Assembly: GCF_014356525.2 (NCBI RefSeq)
Contig: NC_052506.1
Span: 8,859,698-8,923,697, forward strand
DNA length: 64,000 bases
From: Nilaparvata lugens
Taxonomy: Eukaryota > Arthropoda > Insecta > Hemiptera > Delphacidae
Direction of reading: 5' to 3'
Shown: positions 3,361 through 60,300 of the stretch, one piece after another
Layout of the letters: every line of letters begins with the position of its first letter
Numbering within the stretch: the first letter of the stretch is position 1
Made by a program: the position numbers and the translations under genes
The notes under the pieces: generated by a model
What the model was told of the DNA's origin: nothing
The model's database searches: none
The model's input: the letters and a program-made list of their open reading frames with translations, nothing else

Positions 3361-3467
3361 CTCAGTCTGTTAAGTGATTGTCTAATAAAAGTAATTCAAT
3401 GAATGATCAATTGGTTGTTAAACAATGATTTTGAATTCGTCGTTTGACTAGTTCCGAGTTTACTTAC

Positions 3468-3701: not shown

Positions 3702-6700
3702 CTGAAAAATGACATTTCAACCCTTATTAAACAACAATTAACCCTAGAAAGACAACACAAAACAAGCAACGCTTAAAGACAACATGGGGTTACACATGTT
3801 TTATTTAAAAAGCTTGGTCTATTAACTGTGCCATCTTTGTATGTATATGAAGTTGTAATGCATGTGAAAACGAGTGGTGTGATCCAGAATTCAGATGTTC
3901 ATGAGTATAATACGCGAAACAGAGCAGATTATCATATAATGGGTCACAATAGTAGGTTATTTGAACAAAAACCAGATTATATTGGTAGGAAATTTTATAA
4001 CAAGCTACCTCAAATCTTGAAAAGTAATGATGATTTAAAGATTTTCAAAAAACAAATGAAAAAATATTTAGTTGATAGAGCTTTTTATAGTGTACAAGAA
4101 TTCCTTTCAAACCTAAACTAGGTTGAACTACTTAGTGTTAGAATTATTATGTAATAACATGACTTGTCTTATACTCCATGACTGGAGTCTTTAGGACGTA
4201 ATCTAAGAAAAAAAAAACATAACCACAACGGCTAAAAATAAACTTTTTACTCGTGATATTTTTCAAAGTTTTTTGATTTGTAAATCATCAAGCTATCAAA
4301 ATGAAAAAGTTTTCCCAGGAAAACATTTTTTTCTGTACATTACTTTTTGAGATATGAGCGCCTAAAGTTTCAATTTTTGGGACAGAACATTTCAAATTCG
4401 GTAAGAGATAAATCCATGAGATTTAGAGGATAGATTTTTCATAGTATTGTTGATCGAGTGAAACAAAAATTTTCTGGAAATATCAATTTTTAAGATAGTT
4501 ATTCAATTTACTAAAAATAACCAAAAATAACTTTTAGTTGAGTTATTTTTGTTAAATTGAATAAGTTTTCCATAAGTTTATATTTTCAGAAAATTTTTGT
4601 TTTACTAGATCAACAATACCATGAAGAATCCATCCTCTAAATCTCATGGATTGATATCAATTGATACATCGATTAAATGGTTTATTAATTTTGTAAGTTA
4701 AGATTTCTAAGATTGATACTCGTTGCAGCACACAAACCTCTGGTTTTGCTGGCAACGCCTATAAGCTAATTTTGAGAAGAATTATTATTTATTTCATGTT
4801 AATGTTTAAATCAAGTTTTTAATTGTGTTTTTGTTTTGAAAAAATTGTATTGAATTATGGCAAATAAAGAATTTGAATTTGAAAATTTGAATTTGAATTT
4901 GAATTATATCGTACCGAATTTGAAATGTTCTGTCCCAAAAATTCAAACTTCAGTCGCTCATATCTCAAAAAGTAATGATCGGAAAAAATGTTTACCTGAG
5001 AAAACTTTTTCATTTTGATAGCTTGATGATATACAAATCAAAAAACTTAGAAAAATATCACGAGTAGAAAGTTTATTTTTAGCCTTTGCACAGCCTTAAT
5101 ATATCTAAAAACTACCCGTCAGGCTTGCTTCGCTCGCCGTATCCGTCTAGCCAGGACCACCGACTGGATCGTCAAAAAATGAGATCAGCGGGCTCGCTTC
5201 GCTCGCCTGCATTTTTCATTTGAGCATGCTTCACGCCGATATAGTAACAGGTGTTTTTACCAGCGTTTTTCTACGTTTTCTCAAATTTTCGAGATCAAAT
5301 TGACATAAAACATTCAAATTCAGTACAGAGGTTCCGCTGAGGTCTTCTACAAATCGAGAGGTCTTCAATATTTCGCCTATGATATGCTCAAAACTGAACA
5401 TTTTCTGTCTATTAATTGATGAAAGAACTGAGAAAACGCTGGGAAAACGCTAATTTTGGGCGTATCTTTGGCGTTATTTCAAATTCCTTCTAACACAACA
5501 TTATTACACCCTAGCTGAGATTCTGTACTAAATTTGAACAATTTCTGTTCATTTGTTCTCGATAAATCTGAGAAAAAAGCAAAAAAAAAAACGCTAATTT
5601 TGGTCGTATCTTTGACGTTATTGCAAATTCCTTCTAACACAACATTATTGACCGAGCGAAGTGAGGTCTAAGAGCTTGTTCACATGACAGCGATTTACGC
5701 TCGGTTGTCGCTCGATTGGCAAATCGCTCGGTTTGCCAGCCTCGTACACATGACAGCGATTCATGAGCGGTTTACGCTCGGTTATGATAAATAATTACTA
5801 GGTACAACATCTATGTACTCAATCTTAATATCTTAATCTATGTACTAAATCACTATATTACTCTTAAACATATATTACTGCTCTGATCGAAACCACTCGG
5901 TTGACTGAAGACATGTGTACGCTCTCATGCCTTCTCTAGTATATCGAGCCGCCTGGCAACCGAGTGACAACCGAGCGTTGTAGTCTGAGACTACAACCGC
6001 CGCGATTCGCCGGCGACTACTAAGAGCCAGTTCACATGACAGCGATTTACGTTCGGTTGTCGCGCGGTTGACAAACCGAGCGATTGCCAGGTATAGGGAA
6101 ACACATGGTGCCGTACACATGCATCGCTCGGTTTTAATAGTCGCCGGCGAATCGCGGCGGTTGTAGTCTCAGACCACAGCCGCTCGGTTGTCGCTCGGTT
6201 GCTGGCGAAACGAGCCTGAAGGCTAGTGTTTTCATTTCTACATTAACTGACAACTGTTTTTATCTTATTTCCCCATTTGCAGGTTGGATTGTACCTTCAA
6301 GATTCAAGTTGAATCCGAAAGTCAAACATGTTCAATATCTACTTGAATCAACAAAACTAGAATAAGGGTCTAAATTAGTATGGTGGATGGTGGATGGAAG
6401 TTTCTGTTCTACTCAAAACTTGAATTCAAGTTTTCAAAATACTTTCATTTTACTCAAAACTTGAATTCAAGGAAACTTGACTATTGTAAACGCCTCTTAT
6501 CCTGAACAACTTTTTCCACGTCCTTCCCAACATGTCTTCCCTTCTGGAACACTTGGTTTTTATCGTTGACATTTTTTCAACGGGAATTAAAAACAGATGG
6601 ACATATTAAACTGAAGGTCCCGGCTGACATATTAAAGTCGTGAGTTGTGAAGCCCATTGACGGCTAAAATTAAATATATATACAGACTAGGTGGGACCTT

Positions 6701-9700
6701 CCCGTAAGGGACTCCCCACTAACAAAAAGCCATATGAATCTTCTTTTTTCCAACGATTTTAATCTTAATTATGAATAGCCTATAATTTTCTTGCTTGACC
6801 TTTACGAGCACTAATTAGATACAATTACCTTGAAATAAACATCTGAATATTAGATAAATAAAAGAAGGTAAATAAATTTATTGATATTGGAAACCCCTCG
6901 TTCGGCATTCACTTACTATAATATTATTACAATAAACGTTCATTTTCTTATTTACTTTCAATTATTTTGCGAGTGTATAATTATAAAATTAAATAATGAA
7001 GCCAACAATTTCAAAGCTGTGTTTACACCAAAGTTATTAACAAAATGTTTGTTTCTCCGTCCTTATAGATTCTATTAGATTGAACATAACTTATCATACA
7101 CAGACATGATGAACATATGTTTCTGTCAAGTTCCGTTCAATCTAATCTATAGAGTCTATAAAGGACGGGAAAATAAACATTTTGTTAATAACTTGATCCT
7201 TATAGATTCTATTAGATTGAACATAACTTATCATACACAGTCAGGGCCGGAACAAGGGGGGGGGGGCAGAGGGGGCGGTTGCCCCGGGCGGCAGGGTTGA
7301 GGGGCGGCAAATTTCTGGTTGCAGAAAATTTGTTTAATACAGTTTGTAAAAGTTTTTAATGAAACGAGCCAAACGTCATAAGTAACGTCAATTAAGTAAT
7401 TTCAAAACTGCATAACGTAATAATCAAACAATAATTATAATTTTACAATAGCAATCAATATAAATCTATTGCAACGAGTAGAAAACACTGAGCGAGTGAG
7501 AGCCCTAATAGCATAATAAGCAGCACAGCAAAGTTTTTTTACAATTTTAGCTGATCGCCATCCCACTCAATGCCAGCCTCACTGCCATGCCGCCCCCAAT
7601 CAGTGTTGCCAGATGTGGGGAATTTTCGCCTAGTTGAAAGGTAAATTTTTACTCTTAGAGTAAATTTTTAAATAAAAGAATTACTCAATTTGAAAATATA
7701 TTTTACTAATTCTAAAGCTGGTGAGTTGGCAGACACATATAAGGAAGACTTGAACAAAAAGGAGTTGATATCTGAAATTGAAAGTTTCAAAGGCTTTGCA
7801 TTAGGAGTGGATAATAAATTGAAAACGTCTAGTGCTTCCACTTCATTAGAACTCATTTTAAAGAACAAGCTGGAAGAAATGTACCCAAATATCACAACAG
7901 GACTTAAAATATTCCTCACACTACCAGTATCGGTTGCTACCGGAGAAAGGAGTTTCAGCAAGCTCAAGTTGGTCAAAAATCACCTAAGAAGTTCTATGTC
8001 TCAACAAAGACTCACTGATCTTAGCATTATTACCATTGAACACAAGCGAGCCTCAAACATTAGTTTTGATAAAGTGATCAAAGAATTTGCCTCCAAAAAG
8101 AGTCGTAAAGTAATCATTACAGATTAAGTTATGATGCATCTAAAGTCTATACTACTACGACCTACATACCATTATTTATAGTGTGAATATTTGTATGAAT
8201 TAAAATACTTTATAAAAACTATCTCAACTTTTCTTAATTTATTTGTTTACCTGTTCCATTTTTGTTTAATTTGTGAGGGATTTTTTTGTGGGTGAAGAGG
8301 GGGAGGGGCGGCAAATTTTAGTTTGCCCCCCCTCAAAAATTGTCTAGATCCGGCCCTGTACACAGTCATGATGAACATATGTTTCTGTCAAGTTCCGTTC
8401 AATCTAATCTATAGAGTCTATGAGGACGGAAAAATAAACATTTTGTTAATAACTTGATCCTTATAGATTCTATTAGATTGAACGGAACTTGACAAACACA
8501 TATGTTCATCATGTGTATGATAAGTTATGTTCATTCTTATATGATCTATCCTATCATAGCCACCTCTAATACAAGGCCCCGGCCTACGATATTGTAACAT
8601 CGCAGTGTAGGCCTAGAATCTAATACATGATTGGTGAAAAAGATTTTGAAAAAATACCAGCTGATCTTTTAACATGAATAGGCAGCTGGTATTTTTTTAA
8701 ATATTTTTCACCAATCATGTATTAGATTCTAGGCCTACACTGCGACGTTGCAATATCGTAGGCCGGGGCCTTGTATTAGAGGTGGCTATGATCCTACACT
8801 ATTAAACGAGCAACTTCTGTTTTTATATTGTTTATATGTTTGTATTTCACCGGATCTCGAAAACAGCTCTAACGATTCCCACGAAATTCAGAACATAGTA
8901 GGTTTATAATATAAAGATTCGATTGAACTAGGTCTCATCCTTTGGAAAACTCGCTGAAGGACATTAAAAGGATAATTATTAATCATCCATGGAAAAACAG
9001 CTGATAATAATTATTTCGTCGTCTGTTGGTGATGGAAGTGAGTGAGAGAGTTCATGTGTTGGACTGTGTCAAAATTATGACTCAGCTGTTGAACTTTTGT
9101 AATCATTTAATCAGGAACTTGGTGCCGGTTGCAAAAAAACCGGGTTACTTTCAATCCTGATTAATTCCAGTAGATCAATCTTTTTGAAATGGTCTTCTCT
9201 GATTTGGTTCACGTGAAGTTAATCAGGATTAAAATCTAACCGGCTTTTGTGCAACTGGGCCTTTGTGAGGGAAATTTTTTGCCTTCCCTTTGGGAATTAA
9301 TCTCAATTGACTGTGATTAGATAGAACATTTCTGTATGAATGTTATTATAATTTCTTCTTTCGTAATACATTTTTTGCACTCCAGAGCGAAGCTCGGTCT
9401 CCGATATTTAGGATTAAGTTATTAACATTTTGTTAATAACTTTGGTGTAAGCGCAGCTTAAGTGGATCTAATATGTGTTTGAATGAATTTTTTAATTAAT
9501 TACTTTTCAAATGAATTATTTAGAGCAAGTATTGTTTTATGAACTGAGATGAAAGCAACGTATTGATCATCAAACTAGACGTTAGACGTAACACGTTATT
9601 GTTCTCCAAACTATAAATTGTGACAAGTTATTGTTGATCGAGCTCACGAGACTTTATTGTTCATCAGACTATTGTTCGACTTTATTGTTCATAAAAAAAG

Positions 9701-31106: not shown

Positions 31107-31184
31107 TCAGTCCGCTGCTTCCGATTCTGTCCAATCAACCCTGGCCCATTCTGGTAGCTCCGTCTCATAACTCCAGCCTGGTCC
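31107..31184 (-). CDS. RPUSD2: RPUSD2-like terminal coding exon
   Basis: 78 nt ending in TGA (31109-31107), acceptor TTGGCAG. It encodes GPGWSYETELPEWARVDW plus seven residues and a stop. This matches the family's closing GPGxEY...PxWA...DW. In phase with the previous exon (AGG|GGA). Too short for ORF calling and found by extending the model. The acceptor is preceded by a (TTGA)n repeat instead of a pyrimidine tract. Confidence 0.88.
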   Translation of the reverse strand, partial: GPGWSYETELPEWARVDWTESEAAD

Positions 31185-33473: not shown

Positions 33474-36333
33474 AGCACTCACCCTGTACTTCCAGGCGTG
33501 CAGGTACATGACGAGATCGGAGGGCTTGGGGTCGCGGTACTTGACCTTGCACTCGTAGCAGTGCGGGTCGGAGGTCATGCGCTCCGCATTGAAGACGAGG
33601 TCGGGCGCCTCGTGGCCAGTCTGCGTGGCCACTGTCACCTTGGTCGACGCCGCCACGGGCGAAAGCGTCGCCAGCGCCGGCACGCTCACGGGACACGGCG
33701 GCGTCTGCTGCTGCGACTGTGGAGACACGTTCTCACACGGCGACGGCTCGCGACTCGGAACTGGAATACAACAATCGCGATAATGTTATTACTGAGCATA
33801 TTGAGATTGAGTTTATATACTGCATAATTGGCAGAAATATAAAATTAGTTAGTTTTGTAATCAATTTTATATCACCATCTCAAACAGGCCTAGTACCTCG
33901 AGATGCAAATACTCAATTGGCATTGCATTTTATTTTGTAATAGTATTTCCTCATGTTGTAACATTTGTATTGATTTTATTATGTATTTCTAAGTTGTTGT
34001 AATTTTATATTTCTGCCAATTATGCAGTATATAAACTCAATCTCAACAACTTAGAAATACATAATAAAAGCAATACAAATGTTACAACATGAGGAAATAC
34101 TATTACAAAATAAAATGCAATGCCAATTGAGTATTTGCATCTCGAGGTACTAAACCTGTTTGAGATGGTGATATAAAATTGATTACAAAACTAGCGCTAA
34201 AATGTAGTTACTGAGGCCGACAGTCGCATATGAAGTGACACATATTACATAACAGTATCGATGATTTATCAATTTTAGCTTCGAAGTATATTGTACAATA
34301 TTATGATATACAAGTCTACATGAGAATTCTAAAAAAGGTATCTATATTCTCACATTCCATTACAAATCTAAAAATAAAATTATATTAATTATTTTCTGAG
34401 TATATACTAATTCCAACTGTACACACCTCTTTTACAAAGAGATAATCAAGAAAAAAATGACAAGCAATTCAAATATTATAGTTATAAATCCTTAAAAACA
34501 CTTCACTTGTATGGGCTACTTTTGTACAAATTAATAAAAACTTGTAGTACTTGTATTTTAAAACTTTAAAATATTCCAACAATTTTTATTTTTGTTGAAA
34601 TATTTTAAAGTTTTTAATAATAAAGGATACTACAAGGTTTTTATATTGTTTTTATTAATTTGTACAAAAGTAGCCCATATAAGTAAAGTGTTTTTACTTT
34701 TAATCAGATACAAATTTGTATTATACTTGCAGCTTTATTCATTTCAAGGGGATTGTTCTTTCAGAAGAAATTTCATTTTTAACAATGTTATTAAAAAAAC
34801 CCTGCATTGTACACTCAAAAATATAATTTCCTGATTTTTTTCACTACCAATCATATTAATGAAAATGAAATTTATCCTGCTTTTGAATAATACAACAATT
34901 ACCGTAAATGCAATCAATATTTTAGGATTATACTACCAGCAATTTTATTTAGACGCTGTCAGTCTAATGATAGGTTTAATAACAAGTATTTGTTGAAATT
35001 TAATGAATGAATAAAAATTGTACATGAAAGAAAGAAAATCTATTCCGTTGAAGCCGGATTAAGAGCTTAGTAGGAACAGAACATATTGTACAGGAGAATT
35101 AAATTGCACTATATGAATGTAATCCTTAATGTAATAATCAAATCACTGAAAAACGCTGAATATGGTCTCACTCTACCAAGAATCAAGAAACAAAATAAAA
35201 ATTAAGATCTTATGTAAAAAAATTGAAGTAAATTGAAAGAGTTTTGAAGCGGTTCAGACAGAACAATAATTATTAGACTAAATTTGGGAATAGAAGACGT
35301 TTTGTGCTATAGTGAAGTCCACGTTATAATGACAGTATTTGATCAACTTTGGTTTTGCTATCATTCGACAAAGCCGGTGGTACTATCCTTTTCTAGGTCC
35401 ACAACGATACCAATTATGTTTTTGACAGTGTAGAAATATAATTAATTAATTCAGAGAATCGGCATCGCTATTTTTCTATCTTTATCCACTGCCATTATAA
35501 CGTGGACCTCACTATAGCACCTGATTTCTCATTACGCTATTGTGATTGCTATCCTTGTCTATCATTCCACAAAGCAGATAGATCTATCCTGTTTTTTATC
35601 AAATTATGGTGTTATGTATCAAGTTGAGATGATACTGTATCATATTGTGTTGATACTGTATCATAATGTCAGTATGTCGAACACAAATTGGTATAGTGAG
35701 GTCCACGTTATAATGGCAGTATTTAATCAAGATTGGTGTTGCTATCCTTGTCTATCATTCGACAAAGCAAATAGCGCTATCCTTTTCTAGCTCTGTCAAC
35801 GTTGCCAGATCGTTTTTCAATGATGTAGAAATGTAATTATTCTACAAATATTCTATCTCAATAATGGAAATTTATTATTTAATAAATAGAAAATATATTT
35901 CAAAAAGTGAAATGTTCAAAAATTTGCAATGAAATTGCAAAAACTGAAAGATAACAGAAGAGTTCTTTCCTACACGTGATTCTGTGATTCAAATTTATAA
36001 AACTGAGATTACAAATTCACTAGATAAGATATAGTGAAAAACGTAAGATTCAAAAAATACTTGAAAGAATGTCAGCCAGCCCCTACCTTTGTCGTCATCT
36101 TCGAACAGTGGTTTGAACATAGAGAGTTCAGAGTCGCCGTCCATCCCCAGCCAGTTCTCAGCGTTATGAATGCTGATCAGATCTCTTATCAATTCTTCGT
36201 CGGTTTTGCCTATTCTACCACCTTTGCCCTTCTCGGGACCGAACACTGTATGGTTATACAATGGATCGTTCACAACTGGATAGCCTGGAAGAGTGGGACA
36301 AATTATCAAACTAAATGCTTATTGAGAAATAAA

Positions 36334-36385
<52 letters not shown>

Positions 36386-39300
36386 GTTTTATTAATCATC
36401 ATTCGAGTAATCTACAGAGTGTTTCAGAAGTAGTATCTAACATTCTAGGGTATTGTTCCTGGATGATTGATTGATTGATTGAGTACTTTATTTATGTAGA
36501 TTACAATATATTATACTGGCTTATACACTTATATACAATAGCTTACAATACAGCAAAATTATAGATGAATTTACATAATATAGACTAAGAAAATAATTAT
36601 TGAACTGTATATGATATGAAAAAGTGATTTGTAATATAATAACTATAGATAATAATCATATTGTTATGCATCTACATAAATTGGCGGAGCTTTGGACTTA
36701 TCAATGTCCATTCTTCGGAAAGAATATTAAAAATATCCTCCCCACTAACTCTCTACCAAATGATAGGAGACTACAAATGTCGTATTTGAAGTGTCAAAAA
36801 CTCAGCGGTTATCCTTATAACTGACATTTTGTTTTTTTCACTTAGGAATTTTTATCTCAAGATCGAAATCTTGTATTGATCTGAAATTTTGCATGAATAT
36901 TTTTGCTAAAAAGACTCAACTAAAATAAAATAAAAAATTTTCGATATAAATTTTCAAAATGGCTGCCATTTTAAATTTTTGATTGCAAATTTCACGAAGA
37001 CCGTTCACTTTAAAAAAAATTACAAGAGACAAAAAAGTTGGCAAATTTTATCAAAATTTCAAGGATATATCTTATTTATTGAGATTGGTCAAAGAATAAC
37101 AGAGAAATTAATTCTTTTTGTACAGCATGTATGACTATGAACAAACAAGATCATCTGAAAAACATTGTAGAATCAGCTGGATGGCCATATGGAGCCATAC
37201 CGAGTTCCAAAGCTTCATCTTGAATACAATTGGAATTGGAAATTTAATTCTGATGTTTAAATGGTGACAAGTGGTCATGCATGCAGTACAAAAAGAAATA
37301 ATTTCTTTGTTATTTTTCGACCAGTTTTATTAAATAAGGTATCCTTGAAATCTTTATAAATTTTGCTAACTTTTTTGTCTCTAGTAATTTTTTTGTAAAG
37401 TGAACGGTTTTCGTGAAATTTGCAATCGAAAATTTAAAATGGCCGCCATTTTGAAAATATACATAGAAATTTTTTCATTTTATTTTTTAAAGTTGAGTCA
37501 TTTTTACAGGAAAATGGAAATCTATATAATTATCAATGCCTGGAAATTGTGAATGGAACGCAGTGTAGCCAATTAACACGTCTTAGACCAAAAATAGCAA
37601 TACATTGGAATTCAAATTCAAATTTGAATTATTGTGAAATATTTGAAAACATAAAAGTTCTAATTTAGTTTGTTTACAAACCAAATTGAATAAAAAATAA
37701 CACTCACTAATCTCTTAGAACTTTTTTTTTGAATTGAATTGAATTGAATTTATTGCCAAAAATTACAAATACATATTTTTACAATACAATATAAATAACA
37801 TTGATTGTAACTTAAGTGCATCAATAACATGACTGTAATACTTGGCACTGCCAACATAAGATTCCTTGTGTGTTGGCAGTGAGTTGCAGTTTATTTATTC
37901 TCTATCAATTCAGGTGAGTATATGAATTAATATACAATTGATAATGCTAACGAAGAAATTACAAAAAAATTTAATAATGCTAATGAAGCTATACCTATTA
38001 TACAAAAAAAACGCACAGGCTCACAGAAAAAAAATACTTGAGAATACTATACATACTATACTATGATGAAAATTTTAATCTAATTAATCACTGTGACATC
38101 TAGAGGCCATCATGACAGTGAAACTTTCTCAAAGAAAAACAAATGAACTGATACAATAAAAAGAAGTTCCTGTAATGTGACTTGGGACAATAACTTTAAA
38201 ATAATTGATTGACTTTAAAATAATGATTAACTTTGAATATTATGATATACAGCAATTAGACATGCTGTATTGCACACAAAGCATTACAGTGATAATAAAA
38301 TTGCTGATCTTAAAATTTATTCAAATGAATATTTCTTGATACTAGAAAAAATATAAACCAAACTATTTTGGCAATAATTCATTACACTTTATTACGAAGA
38401 TAACAACTAACTTACCAAGATACTGTAAATGGACCCTGATTTGATGCATGCGCCCGGAGTGAGGCAGGCACAGAACTACACTAGTATTACTCTGTGGGTT
38501 GTAGCCCAGCTTATGGAATGTGGATGAGCATTCCTTTCCCTTGGCAGACACTTTGCACACTCCAATCTTGTAGCTAACTACTTCGATCGGCTCGCAAATT
38601 TTCACAACCTCGTCCCTGCAAAAGTAATGAGAGCACATTGGATAAAAATGATGATGAAATTGATTTTTGTGATCTACTAATAGGCAACATACAATGAGAT
38701 AGTATTGGTAGGAAAGAATCAATATACCATAATTAAAATAGTTTCACCAGTAGAAAATTATGAATAAGTACAGTGAAAATACTTTGACTGAAATACTTTT
38801 TTCCTACAGTTACCTTGAAAAGTGACCATTCCTGCACTGATTACAGAACGCAAAGAATCACTTTTCCGCTCTAGTGGGCAAAGTATTACATATTAGTATT
38901 TTTTTAGTACTTTGCGTACTCTTAATACTTTGCGTATTATCTTGCAGCCATCTCAATCAGCTGTTGACATTGTTGGTGTGTATTTTGAATGCAAATTTGT
39001 TCTATCTATATTTTTTTCTGATATTCAAATAAATAAAAATGAGAACTCATTAAATTATACATTTTTAATATGATTAATTATTCATTATTTCAAATAATAT
39101 ATTTTCATTCATAAATTGATTGGTTGATTTTTTTTTAGAAATTAAGATTTACTCAAAAAGATTCAAATTAATTGGATTAATTTAATTTTTAACTTGAATA
39201 AATTATCGATTATTAATTTTTAATTAGATTATCGAGTTTAAAATAAATTAAAGTTGTTATTAATAACAAAATTATACAGACAAACATTTGATGGATTTCA

Positions 39301-42300
39301 GCCATCATTTCACCCATAATCAACCACTTCTCATATTCAATGGTGAACTGTAGGAGAAATTTAATGAGAAATACGTGCGCAAAGTTCCTCTGCTGCACTC
39401 AAGAAACCATTCCGCAAAAAAAATGTAGAGAGAAAATTTAGAGGACAAAACTTGTTGGTAATTTTGTAAGCTTCAATTTTGTACAGAACACAAATGTTCA
39501 TAAGAAGCATAGTTTCCGAGATATAAGCGAAAAATTAAAAAATGGCACTTTCAAACCACCCCCACCCCTTTAGCACAGGGGGTAGGGGTGAGGACTTTTG
39601 ATATGTTAATCCTCTTACTATCCTTAAAAGAATTGTGGAGTTGAAAATTGTGTTCCAAACTTCTCCCTCTATAATCTTTCGTTGACTGGACTGTTATGAA
39701 TGATTGGAAAAAGAACAACAGAGTTATCTCTGTTCTATTCATTAAGTACATATCACATAATTTACTACACTTTCCAATACTTACCAGTTATCATCCTATC
39801 ACTTACTTCTAGCAGAAAACGAACAATTGTTGCAGCAATGAAATTCACCCCCTACATTGAAGCTGCTATATCAATAAAAGGAAAACTTGGAATAGCTCTT
39901 GAAGGTGAAATATTTTTGAAAAACTCTTGTGCCTTCATTTTTACTATCTTTTTGGCCTTATAACTTGTGAACGATTGATGAAAAAAATCCGTGCTGATTA
40001 TGAGCTGATAGAGCATCAAATTATGAGAGACATGGAGATATGGAGAAAATGTAGAGGACAAAACTTGTTGGTAATTTTGTAAGCTTCAATTTTGCACAGA
40101 ACACAAATGTTCATAAGAAGCATAGTTTCCGAGATATAAGCGAAAAATGAAAAAAGGTACTTTCAAACCACCCCCACCCCTTTAGCACAGGGGGTAGGGG
40201 TGAGGATTTTTGATATGTTTACCTCCTTACTACCCTAAACAGAACTGCGGGGTCAAAAATTGTCTTCCCAACTTTTCCCTCTATAACCTCTTGACTGGAC
40301 TAGTAGTATATTATGTGATATGTACTTAAAGAATAGAACAGAGCTGATATGTTAATCCTCTTACTACCCTTAAAAGAGCTGTGGAGTTGAAAATTGTGTT
40401 CCAAACTTTTCCCTCAATGCTTTTATTTAAGCATTCGTTGCCTGCCTGGACTATAAATGAGAATGATATTGTATGTATCAATGTGTATCCAAATGAATAA
40501 ATTAATAAAACTCACGGAAATTGTCCTTCGACCCTGCAGACGTACTCCTTTTGCACCTGTCGATTCCTGATCTGCTGCTCCATCTGGCGCGCCTTCTTGG
40601 GCGTGCGTCCGAACAGCAACAGGCCACTGGTCAACCTGTCCAGCCGGTGGATGGTGCGCAGATTCCTCAGCTGGTACTCCTTCGCCAGGATAAACACCAC
40701 CGTGTTGTGCCTGTACCGGCCGCAAGGGTGCACCTGTCACAAATCACATGCCAACTCAATCAACCTATCCTTCTAGATAGAGGTTAAAATAAAGGCAGCC
40801 TATCCATCTATCTTCTCCTCAATCCAAATATTCTCACAAATACCAGGCCAACGTTAATACTTTTCCTCCATCGAGATATTTCGACAATTTCTATGTAAAT
40901 TTGGGAAAGGAACAGTTTTGAGCTTCAAGCCTGTTGTTCCCTCCCCAATCATTCATAGTTGAGAATTATATTGTAACCTATATGTATTAATGTATAAATA
41001 AATAAATATATATTAGATACACCGTTTAAAATATTTAGTAATTAAAATATATCTGAAACTTCTCTTCAAAAGTAATATTTATTCGATAAACCGTTCACAA
41101 AAAAACACCAACGTTGGTTATTATCTTCTAATTTGTTCAAACATTTACAAAATTATTAATATTGTTCTCTTATATAGCTTATATACGACGACCGTTTCGT
41201 GCTGGTGTTTCACATTCTCAAGCCAAACAGAATCTCTGAATTGAAACTGAGTTTCTGTTTGTCTTGAGAATGTGCAACACTACCAGCACAAAACACGTCG
41301 CCACACCAAAGAATGTGAGTGTTTTTTCACTTTTAAGTTTTATAAGAATACAATAGTAATAATTCCAGTGAAAACAAGATGGATAATCAACATCGATTTA
41401 CAAAATGTTTTTATAAGTGGTACAATGTTTCACAAATTGGTAATTTGTTGAAATAATTACAATTTACTATACAAGTGATAAATCTCAATTAATAAGGTTT
41501 TATCATTATGTATGAGTTCTTGTAAGAGTATGTAGAACTGACAGCAGATTGTAAATAATATTGTTTTGTTTTTTATGAGGAATAAAGAAGTTTTTGAATT
41601 GAATAGGTATTCTTCCTATAATAATATTTCGTTCGATACATTATTTAGAAGAAAAAAAACACTTTATTTATAGATATCCTTGATCATTATATTCGTTCTA
41701 TACAGCACTAATAAAATGTTTTCATAAAATGGTACAATGTTTTACAAAATTGGCAATTTGTTAAAGCGATTAAAATATTTCGTTCGATACATTATTTGAA
41801 AAACACTCCATTATTGTATCCTTGATCAAAATGTTCATTTGATACAGCATGATCAAAATATTTTATTTATAGTTATCCTGGATCGGAATAGATTAATGCA
41901 GTATTTAGAAAATAAGATTCCTTCTCGTTTACAATGAAATATTTATTCGAATCCCGTTTTTAATATAGTTATAATCCTATTTAATGGTATTTTTCTTTTT
42001 TCATTTTATATTGTATTTTACTTTATTTGTTTATAACCATTTTTGGAATTGTAATTATGTTTTTAGGACAAATAAAGATTTGATTTCAAATCAAATGTTT
42101 CTATTGACATTCACAATGATACATGTATCACATTGATATGTAACTATAGTTTGATAAGATTGATCAAGATTGATCAGTTTATATTCTAATTCAAATTCTA
42201 TTCAAATCAACATTTACAAAATCTTATATTTTTGTTGGTCTAAAGCGATATTATAATTCATGTCTTTGAAATAGCTTATATGATTATTCTCAAAGTATTA

Positions 42301-45300: not shown

Positions 45301-48300
45301 ATCCTAACCTAACCAAACATTGAGTAGAATCTCAGAGTTTTCAATATAAATTATCTAACTAACCTAACCTAACCTAACTAAACCTTGAGTATAATCTCAG
45401 AAGAGTTTTCAACATAAATTATTAACTTATTTGATAGAGCACCTAACCTAACCAAACATTGAGTATAATCTCAGAGTTTTCAACATAAATTATTCATCTA
45501 ACCTATCCTAACCTAACCAAACATTGTGTATAATCTCAGAGTTTTCAACATAAATTATTTATCTAACCTAACCTAACCAAACCTTGAGTATAATCTCAGA
45601 GTTTTCAACATAAATGATTTATTTATCTATTTTATTTAGTAATTTATATTTTACACAATACATAAGAGAATGAATAATGGAATAAGATAGGAGTTTGATA
45701 CATTACCTTGGGGTTGATTAGTTGAGGAGCATGCTTTAGAGGTTATTGAGGTTGACTTACCGGCAATGAACAGGGTTTGTCCAAGGCGACTATGTCTTCA
45801 TCTACATGGACTAGACGCAAACGCTTTGCTAAGACAGGAGTCTCGTGTCTGCAAGGCAATTAGCACACTATACCACCAGAGCCAAGGCCAGCGCCAACCC
45901 ACAGCCCACTTCCCATCAAAGACACCACAACATGCAAATTACACCTCTTCCCCACTTTCCATCCCAGCAACGATTCAAAGTACAAGTTATGGGATTTCAA
46001 TTGTTGTTTCAAGAACATATTGGATTTGTGGTGTGATGGGCGTTTCGATTGAAGTATATACCTTACCTTACAAGCTGGCTATTCAACTTGACTTGAAAAA
46101 ATATTATAGAATGAGAGAAAATCCAACAATCATATATGAAATGAATGAATAGAAAGACAGCATTATAACAAAGACATTAGTCTGAGATATAATTTACAAT
46201 TTATTTCTATTAAAGTACGAAATGAACAGTTAATTAGTATGAGCTAGATCATAGGGTTGAGTAGGGAGGTAAGTTTTAGATTATTTTTATTATAAATAAG
46301 AAGAGAGGAAAATTGAAATATTCGAATTTAGTTGGAAAATGAGTTTGTAACAAATCCTCCTTACTTTCTACCTAACCCTTTAGCACTATACTACTTACTA
46401 GAAAAAAACTTTGAATAGATTAATAACTATAGAAAAATAATTTATTTTCAACATGATAATGGAGTCATGAATAGCTTATTATGTCTAGTAAAATAGCTCA
46501 AATGATTCTGGTCTGATCAGAATATTTACAGAAAAAAGGATAATATATAATTGAGGTTGTATTACAATATAAATCAAAACAGGAAACACACGACATAGAT
46601 AGATTAAAAACACTTGGAAACTTACATTATTGTTTGGAAATTTTTCTTCTTCAACCACTCACTACTTGGTTGAAGAAGAGGACACAGCTCCTCGGAAATT
46701 TCCAAACAATAATGTAAGTTTCTAAGTGTTTTTAATCTATCTATGTTGTGTATTTCCTGTTTTAATTTATATTATAAAACTGTAAAGTGTTTCTGTTATG
46801 TGCTTCAAATGAAGTTATATTATGATATTTGTGTACATAGATTTTAATTTTGAACTATTGTGGATCATAAACTGTATATATTATTGTATAGTTATATTAT
46901 GATATTTGTGTACATAGATTTTAATTTTGAACTATTGTGGATCATAAACTGTATATATTATTGTATAGTTATATTATGATATTTGTGTACATAGATTTTA
47001 ATTTTGAACTATTGTGGATCATAAACTGTGATTTTCGAAAGATTTGAATGAAAAACTGTCTTCTTCAAATAATAGTTACTTCCTTCAATAATAGTTTAAT
47101 TTATTGAGTAAATAAAATAGAACTTGAAATGAATAATTTTATATAGAGATGAATTGCAAGTTCAATAAGCCAGCTTAATAAGGTTAAACAATTTTATCCT
47201 TCAATCTTTTTATCTGAGTCTTAGGAGATATTTTAAAGCAGGATGGATAATCTCATTCACTCCATCACTTGAGGAGAGAGAGAGAGAGAGTGTAGTATAT
47301 AAATGAAAGTACATATTAGTTTCGTGAGAAAATTTACAAGTCATCTTCATCCATTGAAATGATATGGTTTTGGAAATACTGCAGTGTAGGCTACTTCCAA
47401 TAAAAGTATGTTATATGTTAATAATAAATAATAAATAAATAAATAATTTTATTCATGGAGGCAACAGGTAAAACCCATTTTGCCTCCTTCACACATAATG
47501 TCGTATACGAGTCACTATAAAATTGAAAACTTGTATTTTCAAAAAGAAAGTGTATGTTGAATACTTTATCCCTTCTTTTAAAGAAAAGGTTGTCCTTCTA
47601 CCGTAATTTCTGGAGAAAAAACTTGGGAAGTGAAGAGCGCAGAATGAAGCAACACTTCATGTTCAATCAATTTATGAGCAAGTTTGGTTAATTGATTATT
47701 TGAATTTCTGCAACTGAATCTTTTAACACAGGTACACATGATACTTCCAAGTTTTGTTATCTCAATGGATTGATAATTTTATTCAACTATAATCTAGTCT
47801 ATCCAAAGCTATTGAGCAGTAGATTGATTTATTATATCATTATAGAAGTATTATTGTTATTGTCTATAAATAATCAATGAAATTTGGTTAAAAAATATAA
47901 TAGTTTAGATTCTCTTCTGTGACCATAGAGAGATGATTATCACAATTATCTTTCAAAGCTTATAGAGTATTGCGAAAAAACACTAGTCTATCCAAATCTA
48001 TAGAGCAGTAGACTTTATTTATTATAGAATTATAGGAGTATTATTGTTATTGTCTATAAATAATCAATGAAATTTGGTTAAAAAATATAACAATTTTGAT
48101 TTTTTTCTGTGATCATAGAGAGATGATTGATTATCACAGTTATCTTTCAAAGCTTATAGAGTATTGCGAAAAAACACTAGTCTATCCAAAGCTATTTAGC
48201 AGTAGACTTGATTTATTATAGAATTATAGAAGTATTATTGTTATTGTCAATGAATAATCAATAAAATTTTGTTAACAAATATAACAATTTTGATTCTCTT

Positions 48301-51300
48301 CTGTGACCATGGAGAAATGATTATCACAATTATCTTTCAAAGCTTATATAGTATTGCAAAAAAAAACTTTTAAAAGAACTGTTATAAATAGAGCGTACAA
48401 ATTGTACGTATTTGTGATATTTCCCCTTGCATTGATACCTATATCAATAAAATCAAAATGACTAGAACATTCCAGGAAGAATAATTCTATTCAATCTAGG
48501 ATTTAATCATTGTTGTATACAGTAGAAATGATGCTAATCATCCTTGAAAATGTAACCTGTGTGGTCACGAAACCATGGCCTTTACAAAATAAAACTGTAT
48601 AATTTGATATGTGTGTTTTATTTCATGATGCTACTCTATAATATTTTTTCTCATTTTAACAGAAAGGTACCAGTATTGTTCCATAAGCCACTCTATTATT
48701 CTACATAATTCCCTACTATGATAAAATGTTATTGATAGACACTATTTTTGCGGGCCAGCCATAGCTATTTGAAATAGTGATCTATTGTAATAGACATTCA
48801 GTGCAGATTCCAATGAATTATGGTAGATTCAGTGAGTTTTATTTGACTACCTCAAATAGCTCTTACACGTCAGAAGAGCAGATTGAGTGGTTCAGATTCG
48901 TATCAATCCTTGTCTAAAAATTATGGATATCCAAAGAAATTGTAGAATTCATTTGAAAAAGTAAGAGAAAGTGGTATAGAACTATTCCATAATTGTTGGT
49001 ATTTTATTATTCATGGAAGAGCTTCAAAACTATGAAACTATTTATTGAATTATTGTAGAATTCATTTGAAAAAGTAAGAGAAAGGGGTATAGAACTATTC
49101 CATAATTTTTGGTATTTTATTATTCATGGAAGAGCTTCAAAACTATGAAACTAATTATTAAAACAGAACCGAAACATCAGATTTCATATCTCAAAATGCA
49201 ATTTGCGTTGCATTTATGACTTTTATATAGATTTTCAATAAACTTGGACTTTCTATTACCTGTAACTGAATATCGTACTTACTGTGCACATCAATAATAC
49301 AGTATGTGAATTCTGAAATTGATGTTGCTTTCCATGACGAAACACTATATATAATAACTTTGTTGTAGTTCATACACTGTGAAACTTGTAAATATTTGAA
49401 AAAACACTTACTTTCCTTGGAGTATTGAGGAATGCATTTGATGAGAAGCTGATGAAGCTCCTCTTCAGGAGTGAAATGCATTCCTCAATACTCCAACAAA
49501 AGTAAGTGTTTTTTCAAATATTTACAAGTTTCACAGTGTATGAACTACAACAAAGTTATGTGAATTCTGCCTGACATGAAGATTTATTTATAGGGGTGAA
49601 ATTTATCATACCTGAGCTTATATAATATATGCATTTTCTTAATGGAATCATGTTATAATCTCATATCTCACTATAATATCATGTTCTAGAATGCAATATT
49701 CAAACAAATTAACAACAGCTATTCTCAAAGACTAGAATATCAACTTTGATATTGACTCTGATTACTTTATAAAACAAAGCAATATTTTGTATTCGACTAA
49801 CGTTTATGAAGTGTTTTTTTAACTGCAATAAGTCTTGTTAAGGTAGGCGCACACAGATCGTCATCGGACGGACGGCACGCCACGGACGGATCGGACGATT
49901 AGATTTGATGCATTGTTTTCGATTGGAGTGCGCATACCTATACGATGCGGATGACGGATGCTGATCTGTGTTCGCCTACCTTTAAAGTCTCCTCTTAGCT
50001 ACTAATTTCGGTGTAGGCGAATTATAGAATTATACCCATTAAAAGAGTGTATTATTATTTGATTTCTCTGTTGACCACCCTTGGACTTAATACAGAACAC
50101 AATTGAATGTCGCTCAAGAGTTTCGTAGGTCGAACCAGGAAATCATTTTTTCATCGAGTATTCATGGTACACCGTAACAAGATCAACTAATTTTGAGTAA
50201 ATTACTTGAATGAGAAAAATACCTCATTATAATAGATATGATTGATGTTTTTGTATATTGTATTATGTGGTTGTTGTTTTTTAAAATGACTAATTAAAAA
50301 TCAATATATTTCTAGAAACCAGATTGAGATCGAAACAGCATTGGCAATTGAGATGTTGGAGGGTTTGAATTGGAGTAACGAGGTCTGTGTTGAGAAGTTA
50401 TTTAAATAAACATTTCAATTTGAAATCGATCAAATTCCGAACATTTGTGCAGCAAAACTTGAAGAATAGATTGGTTATTACAATGGAGTAGCTATCTACC
50501 ATACTACTCATGTAGAATGGAGACTAATTAATTTTACTCTATGGGATGGTGCTATAATGTTTGTGAAGTTTGTATGTAATAATTTATTACCAATACGGTA
50601 CTTTACTATCACTAGTACTTTTTACTCAGATGCAGTCTTCTCAGCATCTAGTTAAATTAAGGTTACTCTCTCAAATTAATTTGCAAAATAAACATGCGAT
50701 CAGTATAGATTGTGCAAATGAAAAAAATAGTTTACAAAGATAAAGCCCAAGAAGTTTATAATTTGTCAGGTATTTACTGAGCTAAAAACCAGTACCTAGT
50801 GGAGTATTTTATGAATATTAATATTTTTGAGGATTATAATTTTTCGAAATGGAAAATTACTTAAATGAGAAAAATACCTCATCATCATAGATATGGTTGA
50901 TGTTTTTGTATGTTATAGATGTGGTTGTTATTTTTTAAAATGACTCATTAAAAATTAATGTGCGTTTTCTAAATATTATTTTAATTCTTCAATGTTGTTT
51001 TCCATCACGAACTGCTTATTATTAAATCACTTTTTGCTATTAGAAAAAACGACTTGGTTGACAACCAAGAAGATGGCGGACCTGCCGAAAGATGTCGTTG
51101 TCACAGTGAGTGATTAATTCATTTATTGTAAAATATCTGACTGCTAGTCGTTTCTTCTAATAGCAAAAAGTATTATTTTCAGTTATTGAATCATGATTAA
51201 TTAAAATGAATGGCATTAATTTCCAAAATAATGAACAAGAAATAATGATAGAGCAAAGAGAAATAGTCGATAATTTAAATTACATTTTATTTAGTTGCAT

Positions 51301-54300
51301 TATCCACTTTGATAAACCTATAACTGTATGTGAACATTGATGAAAAAATAATAATTTAGAGGTTATAAATACCTGTTTGACCATAAGACAGGTTAGCAGC
51401 AGCTGAAGTAAGAGATTTGAATCTGCAGATTCTGAAAATAGTCCCTGAGTTCATGTAAGTCTACAGAACCAACAAAGGCATGCATATGAAGGAGCACAGT
51501 ACCTATTCTACCAACAATTTTATACTGTAAAAAGGTAGGTACTGTGAAAAGGGTGTTAAGTGGATGTGGGTGGGTAAGACCCCAAGCGATTGAAACAATG
51601 TTTGGAGGAAGTATTCAGGAAAAATCAAAGAATTCTGTATTTTTCGAAATGGTTTGTCAAAATATAGGTAAAATTTAGAAAAAATTGGTTCATGAATGAA
51701 GTAAGTTATGGCTGTTGGAGAATGTTCATTAAGTTGATATTTGATATCAAATATTCTGATAAACACAGATTTATTGATACTTAGAAAGACCGGTTCCCGG
51801 TTTATAAACAGATAATCAGTTTACCAGAGATTGACAATAGTGTAATAACCGAAACCGGTCTTTCTAAGTATCAATAAATCTGTGTTTTTTTTTTAATTTC
51901 TTAGTCTTTTCATTTAATATGAATAATTACCACAATATCAACTTCTCAACTACAAAAAAGTACTCTTTAAGTAATGGGATTCTAGAAATTTTCGGTTCCA
52001 CCTTGTACTGTAGAAAAGGTTTCAAGTGAAAGTGAGTGAGTAAGTCTTTACATTTTGACAAACAAAAATCAAACGAGACACCCATCAAGGGCCGTTTGCA
52101 CAAGGGAAGTTTAAATCAAACTAGATTAGCTACGATTATTCATCATTACAGGTATACCTATCACCTGTATTTTGAGGTGCTGATTTAGGTTCCAACTTTT
52201 ACTATGAAAAGGGTTTCAAGTGGATGTAGGAGGGCAAGTCTCTACATTTCGACAAACAAAACGAAAACTAGACACAGATCAAGGGCTGTTTGCACAAGGA
52301 AAGTTTAACCAAACCAGATTTAGTCCAGTCAATATAGACATAAAAAAGGGATGTGCTTGCAATTTATATTGTAGTTCTGATTTTTCTATATTATTATTAT
52401 TTGGGTACATAAGAGGAGTCCAGAACCTATTTCTTCATGCAAAATTTCCTTGTGTGTACAGAATGGCCCAAAAACCTCGTATTTTCGGCTCATTTTCCAG
52501 TTTTCAGCTATTTCTGTCAAATCTCTTGATCGGACAAAAAAATTTGCTCCCGTCTCTTTTTCAGATTATAAGATTCTGAATAAAATGAGATCATTCAGAA
52601 CTTTCTATCTCAAATGAGTACTGAGTTATGATTTTTCAAAAATGAGAAATTGGAGGTTAATATAAATACGAGGTTTTTGGGCCACTCTGTATCTAGCACA
52701 AGGAAATTTTGCATGAAGAAATTGGTTGTGGACTTCTCTTCTAGGTACCCAAATTAGTTATTTGTGCAACTAGTGCACAAAGTGACAGTTTGCTGCACCG
52801 AAAGAAACGTTTATGCACGAGCCGTAGGCGAGGGCGGAATGGTTTCTTGAGTGCAGCAGAGGCACGTATTTCACATTAAATCTTTCCTACAGTTACCATT
52901 GAATATGAGAAGTGGTTTGTTATGGGTAAAATGATGGCTGAAATCCATCGAATGTTTGTATAATTTTGTTACTAATAACAACTTTAATTTATTTTAAACT
53001 TGATAATCCAATTGAAAATTAATAATCGATAATTTATTCAAATTAAAAATTAAATTAATTCATTCAATTTGAAAAATTTTGAGTAAATCTCAATTTCTAA
53101 ATAATTTTTCAACCAATCAATTTATGAATGAAAAAATATTATTTGATATAATGAATAATTTATAATACCGTATTCAAAATTTATAATTTAATGAGTTCTC
53201 ATTTTTATTTATTTGGAAATCAGAAAAATATAGATAGAACAAATTTGCATTCAAAATACACGCCAACAATGTCAACAGCTGATTGGGATGGCTTCAAGAT
53301 AATACGCAAAGTATTAAGAGTACGCAAAGTAATAGAGCCGAAAAGTGATTCTTTGCGTTCTGTGATCAATGCAGGAATGGTCACTTTTCATGGTAACTGT
53401 AGGAAAAATATATTATAAAATCAGAACTACAATATAAATTGCATGCACCAATGTATATAGTGACTGGACTAATTAGCTACGGTTGGTTATGTATGATTAT
53501 TATGTGATGGCCTGTATTTTGAGATGCTATAATCCGGTTTGAACTTATACTGTGAAAAGGAGTTCTGGATGGGTAAGGCCCGGTTGCACAAAAGCCGGTT
53601 TAATTTTAACCGTGATTAATTTCCGTGAGGTCTTTCTGATAAGACTTGATTGGTTCTTGTGGAATTAATCATGGTTAAAATTTATCCAGCCTTTGTGCAA
53701 CTGGAATCAAGTGTATGAATTTGATGTGGGTGGATGGGTGGGTGTGAGTCTCAACATTTTGACAAACAAAAAGCCATCTAAACATGCATGCAGACTAGGA
53801 CTAGGTCTAGGACTGGTTCCTGGCGTCTCAGTGCCACTTACAGGAATTGAGGCCGGTTTGTTTACAACGACCACATCCTCGTCCATGTGTATTATCGCAA
53901 TCGGATCAGCTGTTACGGGAACCTCGTGTCTGCAACACAACAACACTTGATTGCAACAACGTCTTGCTCATGCACTTGCTCATCCTTGCATCCTCACAAC
54001 CTGTACGCCTACTTCAATAATCTACAAGTTGCGCCAGAGAAACTTACTTATTTGAAAGGTCAATTAAAACAAAAGTACTTTGGATATTGTTTCAATCTTT
54101 TTTTTTAAATGAGAATACAATATCTCAATTTTTTCCATGCAGTCTTGAAAATGACATCATACCAATGGCGACCCCCATTGTGCATACACTGATAAAGTCG
54201 ATTTTTGAAATTTCGTTGCAGTATATTTATTCATCAATTTACAATGCAAATGACACTAATGTAATAACATTGGTAGATAAAATAATAAGGTAGTCCTTGT

Positions 54301-57300: not shown

Positions 57301-60300
57301 CACACGACACAGATATGACCACTTCCTGTTTGATTGACAAAGGGAGCCCAGCTCTCGAAAATTTTCGTTTATAATGTAAGTTTTTAAGTGTTTTTAATCT
57401 ATCTGTGTCGTGTGTATCCTTTTTCAATTTATATTATAAAACTTTAAAGTGTTTTCTGTTATGTGCTATAAATACTTAAGTATATATTTCAATATTGCAC
57501 TGATACAGAAAATCAACTGAATTCCATTATGATATTCTTTTTCTTCTAATTATATGATAATATATGATTGATAAATGTAATCTTATTGTGGAATAAAGTT
57601 TGAGAAAGAGCAATGTTCACTCCTCATTGTGTCCTCATCTAACGAAAAAAAGGCATTACTGTTCAACACGGTACAATATTAGTCTTACATTTGAAAGGGT
57701 TTACTGTAAAGAGTTTCAACTGATCTTGGGGATTTCATAGTTCCCGGGCTGACAAATAATTTTTGAATAGTAGCGCTAATCGAATTTTCATCAAGCTGTT
57801 TACCCTGTTGTCAATATTTGGCGTAGCAGAAGTCTTCGGGGTGAATTACAGCATTTAATTTGGATTTTCGTTTAATAATAATAAGTTAAGTTGTCTTGAA
57901 ATTTCTTCTTAAATTGAAAAATGTTGTATCATGTTTTGACGAATGAGAGGAAATGATAAGAATTAATCATGACATATTTGTAACCAATATAACATACTGA
58001 TTACTTAGTTCAGACAAATAATGCACTTTGTACCACTATTGAACATTATTTAAAAGCTTTCTCTTGGTGCGTTTTTAGAGCATATGAAGATTCAATACTT
58101 AGTTGTGAATAAGTTTATAATTCAGCATCCATTATGCAGACTTCAATCGTGGAAGTTTCTAGTTGAAGGAGTTTTATGAAGCGTAGTTGTAAAAAATTGC
58201 AAAGACGAGATATTATTATATTCGACTATAGAATAACAATGTACGGTATTTATTCTCATCAAACACTCTTCATCTTTCCAAGATAACTGCCAATCAATAA
58301 ATAGGAATACCTCCCAAAAAACTATGGAACTCAAGAAGTGTTTTATTCTTACCACAGCCTCCCTAACTCTGAGAAGATCTTTGGGGATGAGAATATTAAT
58401 TAAATTCAAGATTCTACATCACAGTAACTCAAGCTGTATTAAACATGCTATTAGATTAATCTACCATGAGAGTTAAGCTATCTACAAAATGCTCATTCTG
58501 AAATGAATCTAGCATGAGATAATCCATGAGACGGCGAACAAGTTTCCAGTGCTTTCATAGGATGGAAAGATAATATTGTTACTCTTCAAGATAGAAGCTG
58601 TATGATAGGGTAAGTCTGATCATGAAAGCAAACACAATTTTCTGCAGGTATCCAAAGGAAACTGATAAGTGTGTCCCAGTCCCAACATCCTTTCAATATA
58701 AATTCTAAATCCCATCCAAAACTAACAAAATATGGCTTACCGGAAAAATCAATGTGTTCTATATGCTAAAACTGAATTGAATTCTGTGTTGGTCTAGACG
58801 AAAATCGGAGAACCAATGGCAGACAAAGTATTATGCACGTCAAAATGCAGATTTTAATTTTATTTTACGCTCAGATGGAATAGTATTATTCAAAGAGTAA
58901 TATCATAGCCACCTCTAACACAAGGCCGCGGCCTACGATATTGCAACGTCGCAGTGTAGGCCTACAATCTAATACATGATTGGTGAAAAAGATCAGCTGG
59001 TATTTTTTTTAATCTTTTTCATCAATCATGTATTAGAATCTAGGCCTACACTGCGACGTTGCAATATCGTAGGCCGCGGCCTTTTATTAGAGGTGGCTAT
59101 GGTAATATTGTTCTATTACCGGGTTCTATCAGGACCTCCTAAATACCTAATATTTAGGAGGTCCTGGTTCTATTAACAAGATAATTCAACCAGCTAGTAC
59201 AATCTAGGAATTGGAGTTAATAAATCATTTCCAATTATTGTAGGAGACAAAATTAATGTCTTGAAAAGAGAAGAGGAAATACGGACCATAAATGCTGAAA
59301 ATATGTAGATAACATAATAATAATACATGTTTGCCTATTATGGAAAATAACATATTGATCTTGCAAAATACTCAAAAAAACTCTCCCAAAAAACTCCCTG
59401 TTTAACTGATATATAATGATATCCTTCATTTCAATCTAAATTTGGGAAAGGAACAGTTTTGGGCTTTAAGCCTGTTGTTCCCTTCCCAATCATTCATAGT
59501 TGAGAATTATATTGTATCCATCAATGTATAAATAGATAAATAAAAATTAGAATTAAAAATTAAAATAGATAAATATTTTTTTAAAATTAGTTGAGTAACT
59601 ATAGTAATCTATAGTGTAACTAGAAGTGTTGAACTGATATTCTAACAGTTTTAATTTATATTATATTATCATTGATGATCTTTATTATTTTGAAATTAAT
59701 TTATTCCTCAGATGAACAATCTAATCTTTTGATTATTTATAACCTTCTCTTTCTGCTCAAAACTTTCAAGTAAGATCAGTAACCATTTAATTCTGTTATA
59801 CAGATATCCTTTTCATTTTCTCTATATGGAAATGCCAAAATAATTTTTATTTTATAATGAGACTAATACATCAAGGAAAATAACCACCAAATGGTAACAG
59901 AATTCATAGTATTTTCTACATCAAAATGCCAAAATACTTATAATTTTATAATGAGACTAATACATCAAGAAAACTAACCACCAATTGGTAACAGAATTCA
60001 TAGTAACTATACAAGTAGGCCTATAAATGAGATAATAATAACAAGTTGTACGATTTTGAGTTTGGGGTTGAAACAATCAATTCAATAAAGGGTGTAAATT
60101 CAGTAATATCACACATTTTGAAACACCAAGATTTGTACAGAAGGGAGATTATTGGTTTTTGAGAAAAATGTCAGGTAGTTCTTTGTTCCATGTTTTTATT
60201 TATGAGAGGATTATTCATATGGATTAAATAGCGTCCTCTGCCTTTCTATTCAGAAGGGTCTGAAACTTGTCAAAGCATCAGATACAGGAAAAAACGGACA

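Follow-up and report, generated by a model that had tools for sequence, protein, structure and literature searches.

The minus strand of the Nilaparvata lugens window (the whole 64,000-nt stretch of DNA that was analysed) appears to carry an RPUSD2 gene, encoding an RluA-type pseudouridine synthase, with a mutually exclusive pair of exons, A and B, that probably dates back to the ancestor of insects and crustaceans, a reading to which we assign a probability of roughly 0.87 from sequence comparisons. The shared coding exon e1 (62406..62527; LRKVYPYYFTFTTFTKGRWVG...AEEY), located by tblastn with N. lugens protein P0007, is followed by e2 (61514..61614; ERCIRTGS...NDLLANVVHR), the donor of which would be joined to either A (53842..53929; HEVPVTADPIAIIHMDEDVVVVNKPASIP) or B (45761..45848; HETPVLAKRLRLVHVDEDIVALDKPCSLP), typed against homologues as A-type and B-type motif I segments respectively. 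Downstream lie the shared coding exons e3 (40516..40733; VHPCGRYRHNT...IHRLDRLTSG...), with the catalytic Asp loop, e4 (38416..38615; DEVVKICEPIEVV...GRMHQIRVHLQYLG), e5 (36087..36284; YPVVNDPLYNH...FEDDDK), and e6 (33483..33760; VPSREPSP...LHAWKYR), and the last coding exon e7 (31107..31184; GPGWSYETELPEWARVDWTESEAAD), which ends in a stop and the borders of which were set by eye. The translation of exon B is identical to residues 208-236 of P0007, and the B form of the window matches N. lugens 'isoform X3' at 400/400 residues.

The initial annotation had placed two 88-nt minus-strand exons precisely where A and B are found, and the borders and equal phase that it described are borne out, with each exon preceded by AG, followed by GTAAGT, and made up of 1 nt plus 29 codons. 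A and B share 49/88 bases and, as had been claimed, 14/29 residues. Its account of the reading frame also holds, with A or B alone leaving an open frame across the joined exons e1-e6; when both are used, a TGA is met once 16 codons of B have been read, and when both are skipped, a stop follows the 21st codon of the next exon. The pair thereby displays the frame behaviour of homologous mutually exclusive exons (one exon in frame, two or none out of frame), along with their similar length, same phase, homologous sequence, and compatible splice sites. Between the flanking exons there are 45 AG-88 nt-GT sites, 10 of which, A and B included, are open in the required frame; scored against A with BLOSUM62, A reaches 149 and B 90, and because the third best scores -24, a chance origin of the pair is ruled out. 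An open frame of this length is by itself weak evidence, since 12% of 29-codon stretches in the region are open. When both strands of the whole window were scanned without gaps and with a penalty on stops, no third exon copy emerged, as no other place scored at least 35 against A or B.

A mutually exclusive pair of Pancrustacean age is, in our view, the best reading of these sequences. Each pre-mRNA would take A or B, and any mRNA holding both or neither would terminate prematurely, with several exon junctions still to follow, and be destroyed, such that the reading frame itself would enforce the choice. Exclusion through close spacing is rejected, with A and B separated by an intron of 7,993 nt (45849..53841) that exceeds the range of steric exclusion, and exclusion by different intron classes is unlikely, with ordinary GT-AG sites at both exons. 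A search for competing RNA structures, in which a shared docking site would pair with a selector close to each exon, gave 85 inverted-repeat pairs, and two of the 25 longest span exon A: one joins 46559-46630 with 57371-57442 (72 nt, 88%), its first arm also forming half of a local hairpin and resembling a repeat element, and the other, which is AT-rich, joins 45620-45652 with 59543-59575. No cis-element that would impose exclusivity emerged clearly from this; TGCATG sites are present around exon A and might influence its use.

Database proteins, many of whose 'isoform' labels are automatic predictions, present A and B as isoforms of one gene in six other insects. Eleven A/B comparisons were made in 10 species, six of them identical at all aligned residues outside the exon (591 residues in Anopheles coluzzii, 546 in Rhynchophorus, 559 in Cydia pomonella, 544 in C. 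fagiglandana, 559 in Leguminivora, and 563 in Spodoptera frugiperda) and agreeing at 12-17/29 residues within it. The remaining five differ beyond the exon too, with 220/246, 506/543, 517/567, 513/558, and 374/377 residues identical, with gaps. The evidence favours the earlier claim of two isoforms that diverge immediately ahead of the HRLD catalytic loop, within the KP-containing motif I segment. The A form of N. lugens itself was not among the matches listed (best 120 of 409, best 120 of 452, and 90 candidates). NCBI-derived names already give isoforms of an RPUSD2-type gene in several insects; automatic isoform annotation exists, and no paper on the A/B switch was found in the literature.

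Exon B was also sought in relatives, and database proteins place it well past the hemipterans, in insects and crustaceans, with B-type segments in mayfly, thrips, bugs, beetles, moths, mosquitoes, shrimps, and copepods. Among 199 homologues fetched, 110 have an A-type segment and 72 a B-type. A 29-residue segment was obtained from 198 of them, P0197 being cut short, and scores of -30 or below were taken as A (110) and of 60 or above as B (71), with 17 between; the seeds of the score were chosen by motif, and the clean separation of A from B is therefore partly built in. The total of 72 includes P0021 (HETPVLSNPIKLIHVDEDLVVLDKPCSIP), which has an intermediate score and was assigned to B by its residues. 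The other intermediate scorers are two Daphnia segments and one similar, Eurytemora P0154, the unplaced P0198, P0199, the shortened Orchesella P0017, one spider and six spider-like segments, and one coral and one coral-like segment. The isopod record P0032 carries the source flag UNVERIFIED_CONTAM. Sixteen B-form proteins come from metagenome sources on contigs of 1.6-5.7 kb, and an unbroken frame over such short contigs suggests cDNA.

Whether sister species carry stops or indels in exon B was checked at the protein level, and the outcome favours the two-isoform reading, the segment being exactly 29 residues long in 183/189 homologues, a count that pools A- and B-types with both borders readable. 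The remaining 6/189 are predictions holding both segments. An A-type followed by a B-type segment, the same order as in the planthopper gene, occurs within one protein in 7/199 predictions, and such two-segment predictions are taken as annotation errors; in that of Nezara, only KPASIP of A is visible.

Clustering and a tree are independent of the seeds, the type labels on the tree being seed-derived. Built from 95 distinct segments of 196 proteins (P0017 and P0199 were dropped), the tree places 45/45 distinct A-types in one clade (support 0.85) and 37/37 distinct B-types in another (0.865), so that the segments group by type rather than by species. Supports near 0.86 from 29 residues are modest, and the limited tree signal of so short a segment leaves some room for the pairs having arisen by repeated independent exon duplications rather than in one old event, as do the Daphnia, spider, and coral segments lying outside both clades, among which the B residues T3 and D23 are also present. 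Such recurrence is nevertheless very unlikely, as the tree gives A-types and B-types a clade each and the residues most specific to B (L6, L22, C26, and L28) would need to have originated jointly many times.

The pattern of substitution within the planthopper pair bears on whether exon B is maintained. A and B are identical at 16/29 first, 23/29 second, and 9/29 third codon positions (Fisher p = 0.003 for positions 1 and 2 vs 3), which fits protein-level selection rather than drift. In a dN/dS comparison of the two exons, dN is 0.47 and dS is not computable, as saturation would give. The description of exon B as diverged stands in part: B does differ from A, but it is not merely diverged, as it has fixed residues of its own, with C and L of its DKPCSLP motif each present in 36/37 distinct B segments, and a mean pairwise identity of 0.745 over 14 chosen B sequences, compared with 0.785 over 13 chosen A sequences. 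In both types the exon is, in the mean, less conserved than its flanks, with 0.745 vs 0.867 and 0.810 for B, and 0.785 vs 0.866 and 0.876 for A. The minimum in the B set, 0.213, falls in the downstream flank.

Higher flies present a different distribution, with all 24 named proteins (19 from Drosophila, the others from Sarcophaga, Lucilia, Eupeodes, and two Glossina) being A-type. No B-type from higher flies or Hymenoptera occurs in the named entries of 90 candidates sharing exact words, and absences from the two protein listings (best 120 of 409 and best 120 of 452), such as that of Hymenoptera, mean little. Clustering of the protein collection at 90% identity, a level that the A and B products of a single gene exceed, means that one listed protein may conceal the other form, though several A/B pairs are listed separately, and the claim that B was lost in higher flies is weakened accordingly. 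Exon B may be dispensable in these flies. A division of the A and B types between the Drosophila genes RluA-1 and RluA-2 is rejected, as all 19 named Drosophila segments are A-type; two sequence groups are visible among them, with D. sechellia having one of each (P0134 and P0176, whose longest contigs are equal in length). The missing B-types of higher flies are what might be expected were exon B a dead or dying duplicate that is spliced in rarely or never. We regard this as scarcely credible, however, given that B-type length and a fixed consensus are kept across Pancrustacea, that agreement between A and B is so much lower at third than at second codon positions, and that database isoforms, N. 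lugens isoform X3 among them, hold B in the correct frame.

The identity of the enzyme is supported by a match of P0007, to which the window exons are identical, to PF00849 (PseudoU_synth_2) at 104.3 bits, compared with a Pfam cut-off of 26.8, and by the RluA hallmarks IHRLDRLTSG in e3 and KP in both A and B. In an alignment of 38 sequences, K231, P232, L267, and D268 are invariant, and H265 and R266 are conserved in at least 90%. The best PDB match of the structural model is RluA (2i82; E = 1.9e-14), the E. coli enzyme that shares the fold, HRLD-type loop, and motif I KP with that of the planthopper, but exists as a single bacterial form, where the planthopper gene has two exon versions. In the model, the exon spans strands 210-213, 218-222, and 226-231 of P0007, and it encodes the motif I loop together with the strands that open the catalytic domain, the catalytic Asp loop lying in the next exon. 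Around the retained KP, the changes from A to B in the planthopper gene are V22 to L, N23 to D, A26 to C, and I28 to L.

As KP is kept and the Asp loop is untouched, A and B would probably both yield active enzymes. The swapped segment does adjoin the active site, and two-exon and no-exon mRNAs both stop early, as might be seen if the B mRNA gave an inactive or dominant-negative protein, or if the choice of exon and its frame-breaking by-products mainly set the amount of enzyme. Both are unlikely, as B retains KP and joins all the catalytic exons, and residues of its own such as those of DKPCSLP would not be expected to persist in a poison exon. Under the preferred reading of a mutually exclusive pair, both mRNAs would be made in N. 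lugens, with the swap replacing the part of the catalytic domain that holds motif I and presumably adjusting, in certain cells, how active the enzyme is or which RNAs it takes as substrates. The likeliest difference between A and B would lie in target RNAs or expression domain, for which we see roughly even odds. That the enzyme has been splice-switched since the insect-crustacean ancestor, with the choice of motif I module setting which RNAs are pseudouridylated, is a more tentative proposal, and one that we hold to be somewhat doubtful.

Mutually exclusive exons are familiar from ion channels, muscle proteins, and Dscam. Among enzymes, the arginyltransferase ATE1 differs from the gene described here in having proteins as substrates and an unrelated fold. 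Like the planthopper gene, it encodes an enzyme and contains homologous exons used as alternatives, a feature present in several groups of animals; it is named in PMC9741552. Homologous (tandem-duplicated) mutually exclusive exons, as treated in PMC9741552 and PMC3228551, are often ancient and, like A and B, have equal length, the same phase, related sequence, and compatible GT-AG sites; 'pseudouridine' has 0 occurrences in the main texts of these papers, whereas the motif I segment exchanged by A and B belongs to an enzyme that modifies RNA. Drosophila RluA-1 and RluA-2 are presented in PMC7718762 as members of the RluA family, aligned with human RPUSD2, one form having restricted and one ubiquitous expression; these are two adjacent genes, in contrast to the two exons of one planthopper gene.

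The occurrence of both exon versions across insects and crustaceans points to a very old switch rather than a single-species oddity, and if higher flies are truly without B, work on Drosophila would have missed it. The motif I swap would offer a clean natural experiment on target choice by RluA-type enzymes, with one gene giving two forms that differ in a segment of 29 residues, and the A/B pair may open a direct, testable route to studying how pseudouridylation varies between arthropod tissues.

On the minus strand of the window lies an RPUSD2-type pseudouridine synthase gene in which seven shared coding exons were placed (62527-62406, 61614-61514, 40733-40516, 38615-38416, 36284-36087, 33760-33483, and 31184-31107), with two candidates, exon A (53929-53842) and exon B (45848-45761), for one further slot. 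The pair proposed in the initial annotation is borne out, with both exons measuring 88 nt, sharing the same entry phase, and carrying AG and GTAAGT borders, and with the reported identity between them confirmed at 14 of 29 residues; of their 88 bases, 49 agree. The proposed frame rule likewise holds: the frame stays open through the joined exons with A alone or B alone, inclusion of both yields a TGA 16 codons into exon B, and skipping of both yields a stop 21 codons into the next exon, each stop being followed by several exon junctions. Within the 20.8 kb that separate the flanking exons, AG and GT enclose 88 nt at 45 sites, of which ten, including A and B, are open; scored against A, B reaches 90 and the next best site -24, with no other place on either strand of the window scoring at least 35 against A or B. 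The codons of A and B are identical at position 1 in 16/29, at position 2 in 23/29, and at position 3 in 9/29 (Fisher p = 0.003; dN = 0.47, dS not computable), a pattern that reads as the signature of long selection on the protein.

The B isoform built from the window matches the N. lugens database protein 'isoform X3' (P0007) at 400/400 residues compared, with the Pfam family PF00849 scoring 104.3 bits in P0007 (cut-off 26.8). No counterpart of the N-terminal part of P0007 (residues 1-129) was found in the window, and no N. lugens A-form protein is among the matches listed in our homologue searches. Elsewhere in the window, a minus-strand open frame at 3396-3716 encodes a GPR180/TMEM145 transmembrane domain (PF10192, 47.5 bits) and is probably an exon of the next downstream gene, and a hAT transposase dimerisation region (PF05699, 39.5 bits) lies at 7672-8127 on the plus strand.

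Database searches yielded 199 homologous proteins, in which the 29 residues preceding VHPCGRY split into two types with majority residues HEVPVTSQPITIVHMDEDIVVVNKPASIP (A-type) and HETPVLAKPIRLIHVDEDLVVLDKPCSLP (B-type), 110 proteins scoring as A and 72 as B (P0021, one of the homologues, counted as B). B-type segments are present in insects including the mayfly Neocloeon, thrips, planthoppers, leafhoppers, a psyllid, a water scorpion, a stink bug, a cricket, many beetles and moths, and mosquitoes, in the collembolan Orchesella (a truncated sequence), and in crustaceans including shrimps, crayfish, copepods (Lepeophtheirus, Tigriopus, and Eurytemora), and the isopod Armadillidium, whose record is flagged as unverified by its source. 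In a tree of the 95 distinct segments, the 45 A-type segments all group in one clade (support 0.85) and the 37 B-type segments all in a second (0.865); neither clade takes in the spider, coral, or Daphnia segments. The Daphnia segment HEVPVESKIIEIVYQDDDMIVIDKPCSVP (P0130 and P0131), to which that of P0125 is similar, starts A-like and ends B-like (KPCSVP), and may be an intermediate or a B that has diverged. In A-type and B-type proteins alike, conservation is somewhat lower in the exon than in its flanks. By sequence comparison exon B is old and conserved, and the simplest reading of the two types is one duplication preceding the insect-crustacean split, more than 500 million years ago.

That A and B are forms of one gene is addressed by the database proteins of six species, in which all aligned residues outside the segment (544-591) are identical and 12-17 of 29 agree within it; five other A/B comparisons show differences outside the segment too. 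Both segments occur in one predicted protein in 7/199 cases, A first and B second, in agreement with their order in the window, most with extra sequence between them; of A, just the KPASIP end was seen in the Nezara protein. In this protein (P0038, Nezara viridula), KPASIP lies near the start and the exon B segment ~250 residues on, and a reverse-transcriptase domain label (PF00078) perhaps reflects a retroelement that lies in the intron between A and B and was taken up in the predicted gene.

The predicted P0007 model (mean pLDDT 61; blocks of 73 and 90 across residues 211-230, 47 and 52 either side) best matches E. coli RluA (2i82, E 1.9e-14). In this model the exon encodes three strands opening the catalytic domain and the poorly modelled motif I loop, with the catalytic Asp loop encoded by the next exon, common to both forms. 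Both forms are expected to be active, since the K and P are kept in each and PMC7718762 describes motif I residues as conserved and non-catalytic, and would differ in which RNAs they target or where they are used. PMC7718762 also describes two adjacent Drosophila genes, RluA-1 of sensory neurons and the ubiquitous RluA-2, and links both to nociception phenotypes. The named higher-fly proteins among our matches are A-type in 24/24 cases (19 Drosophila rows, Sarcophaga, Lucilia, Eupeodes, and two Glossina), and the named rows of a further homologue search contain no higher-fly B-type. B may have been lost in this group, one possibility being that gene duplication took the place of exon choice; the collection is clustered, however, and may hide B forms.

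The introns around the pair (7,584, 7,993, and 5,027 nt) have ordinary splice sites, making exclusion through crowding or through different intron classes unlikely. Wrong products, containing both exons or neither, would be removed through the frame rule. TGCATG, the Rbfox-type motif, occurs 45 nt upstream of exon A (53974), twice in overlap 50 and 54 nt downstream of it (53792 and 53788), and 88 nt upstream of exon B (45936), among 18 minus-strand occurrences in the 64-kb window; Rbfox-type control of exon A is a possible lead, noticed after the fact. Positions 40000-62000 also hold 85 inverted-repeat pairs, the longest of 134 nt, which are probably remnants of mobile elements. Among the 25 longest, two pairs span exon A (46559-46630 with 57371-57442, and 45620-45652 with 59543-59575) so that looping out of this exon is conceivable in principle; both resemble repeat elements or AT-rich sequence.

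NCBI automatic isoforms already include B. Among the papers listed in our literature searches none describes the switch, which may yet have a bare entry in a supplementary table; 'pseudouridine' is absent from the main texts of PMC3303723, PMC3228551, and PMC9741552, and 'mutually' and 'alternative splic' from that of PMC9997552. All the sequence evidence points to A and B as a genuine and conserved pair of mutually exclusive exons, undescribed as far as our searches show. Mutually exclusive exons are a known kind, with this pair sitting in an unusual place.
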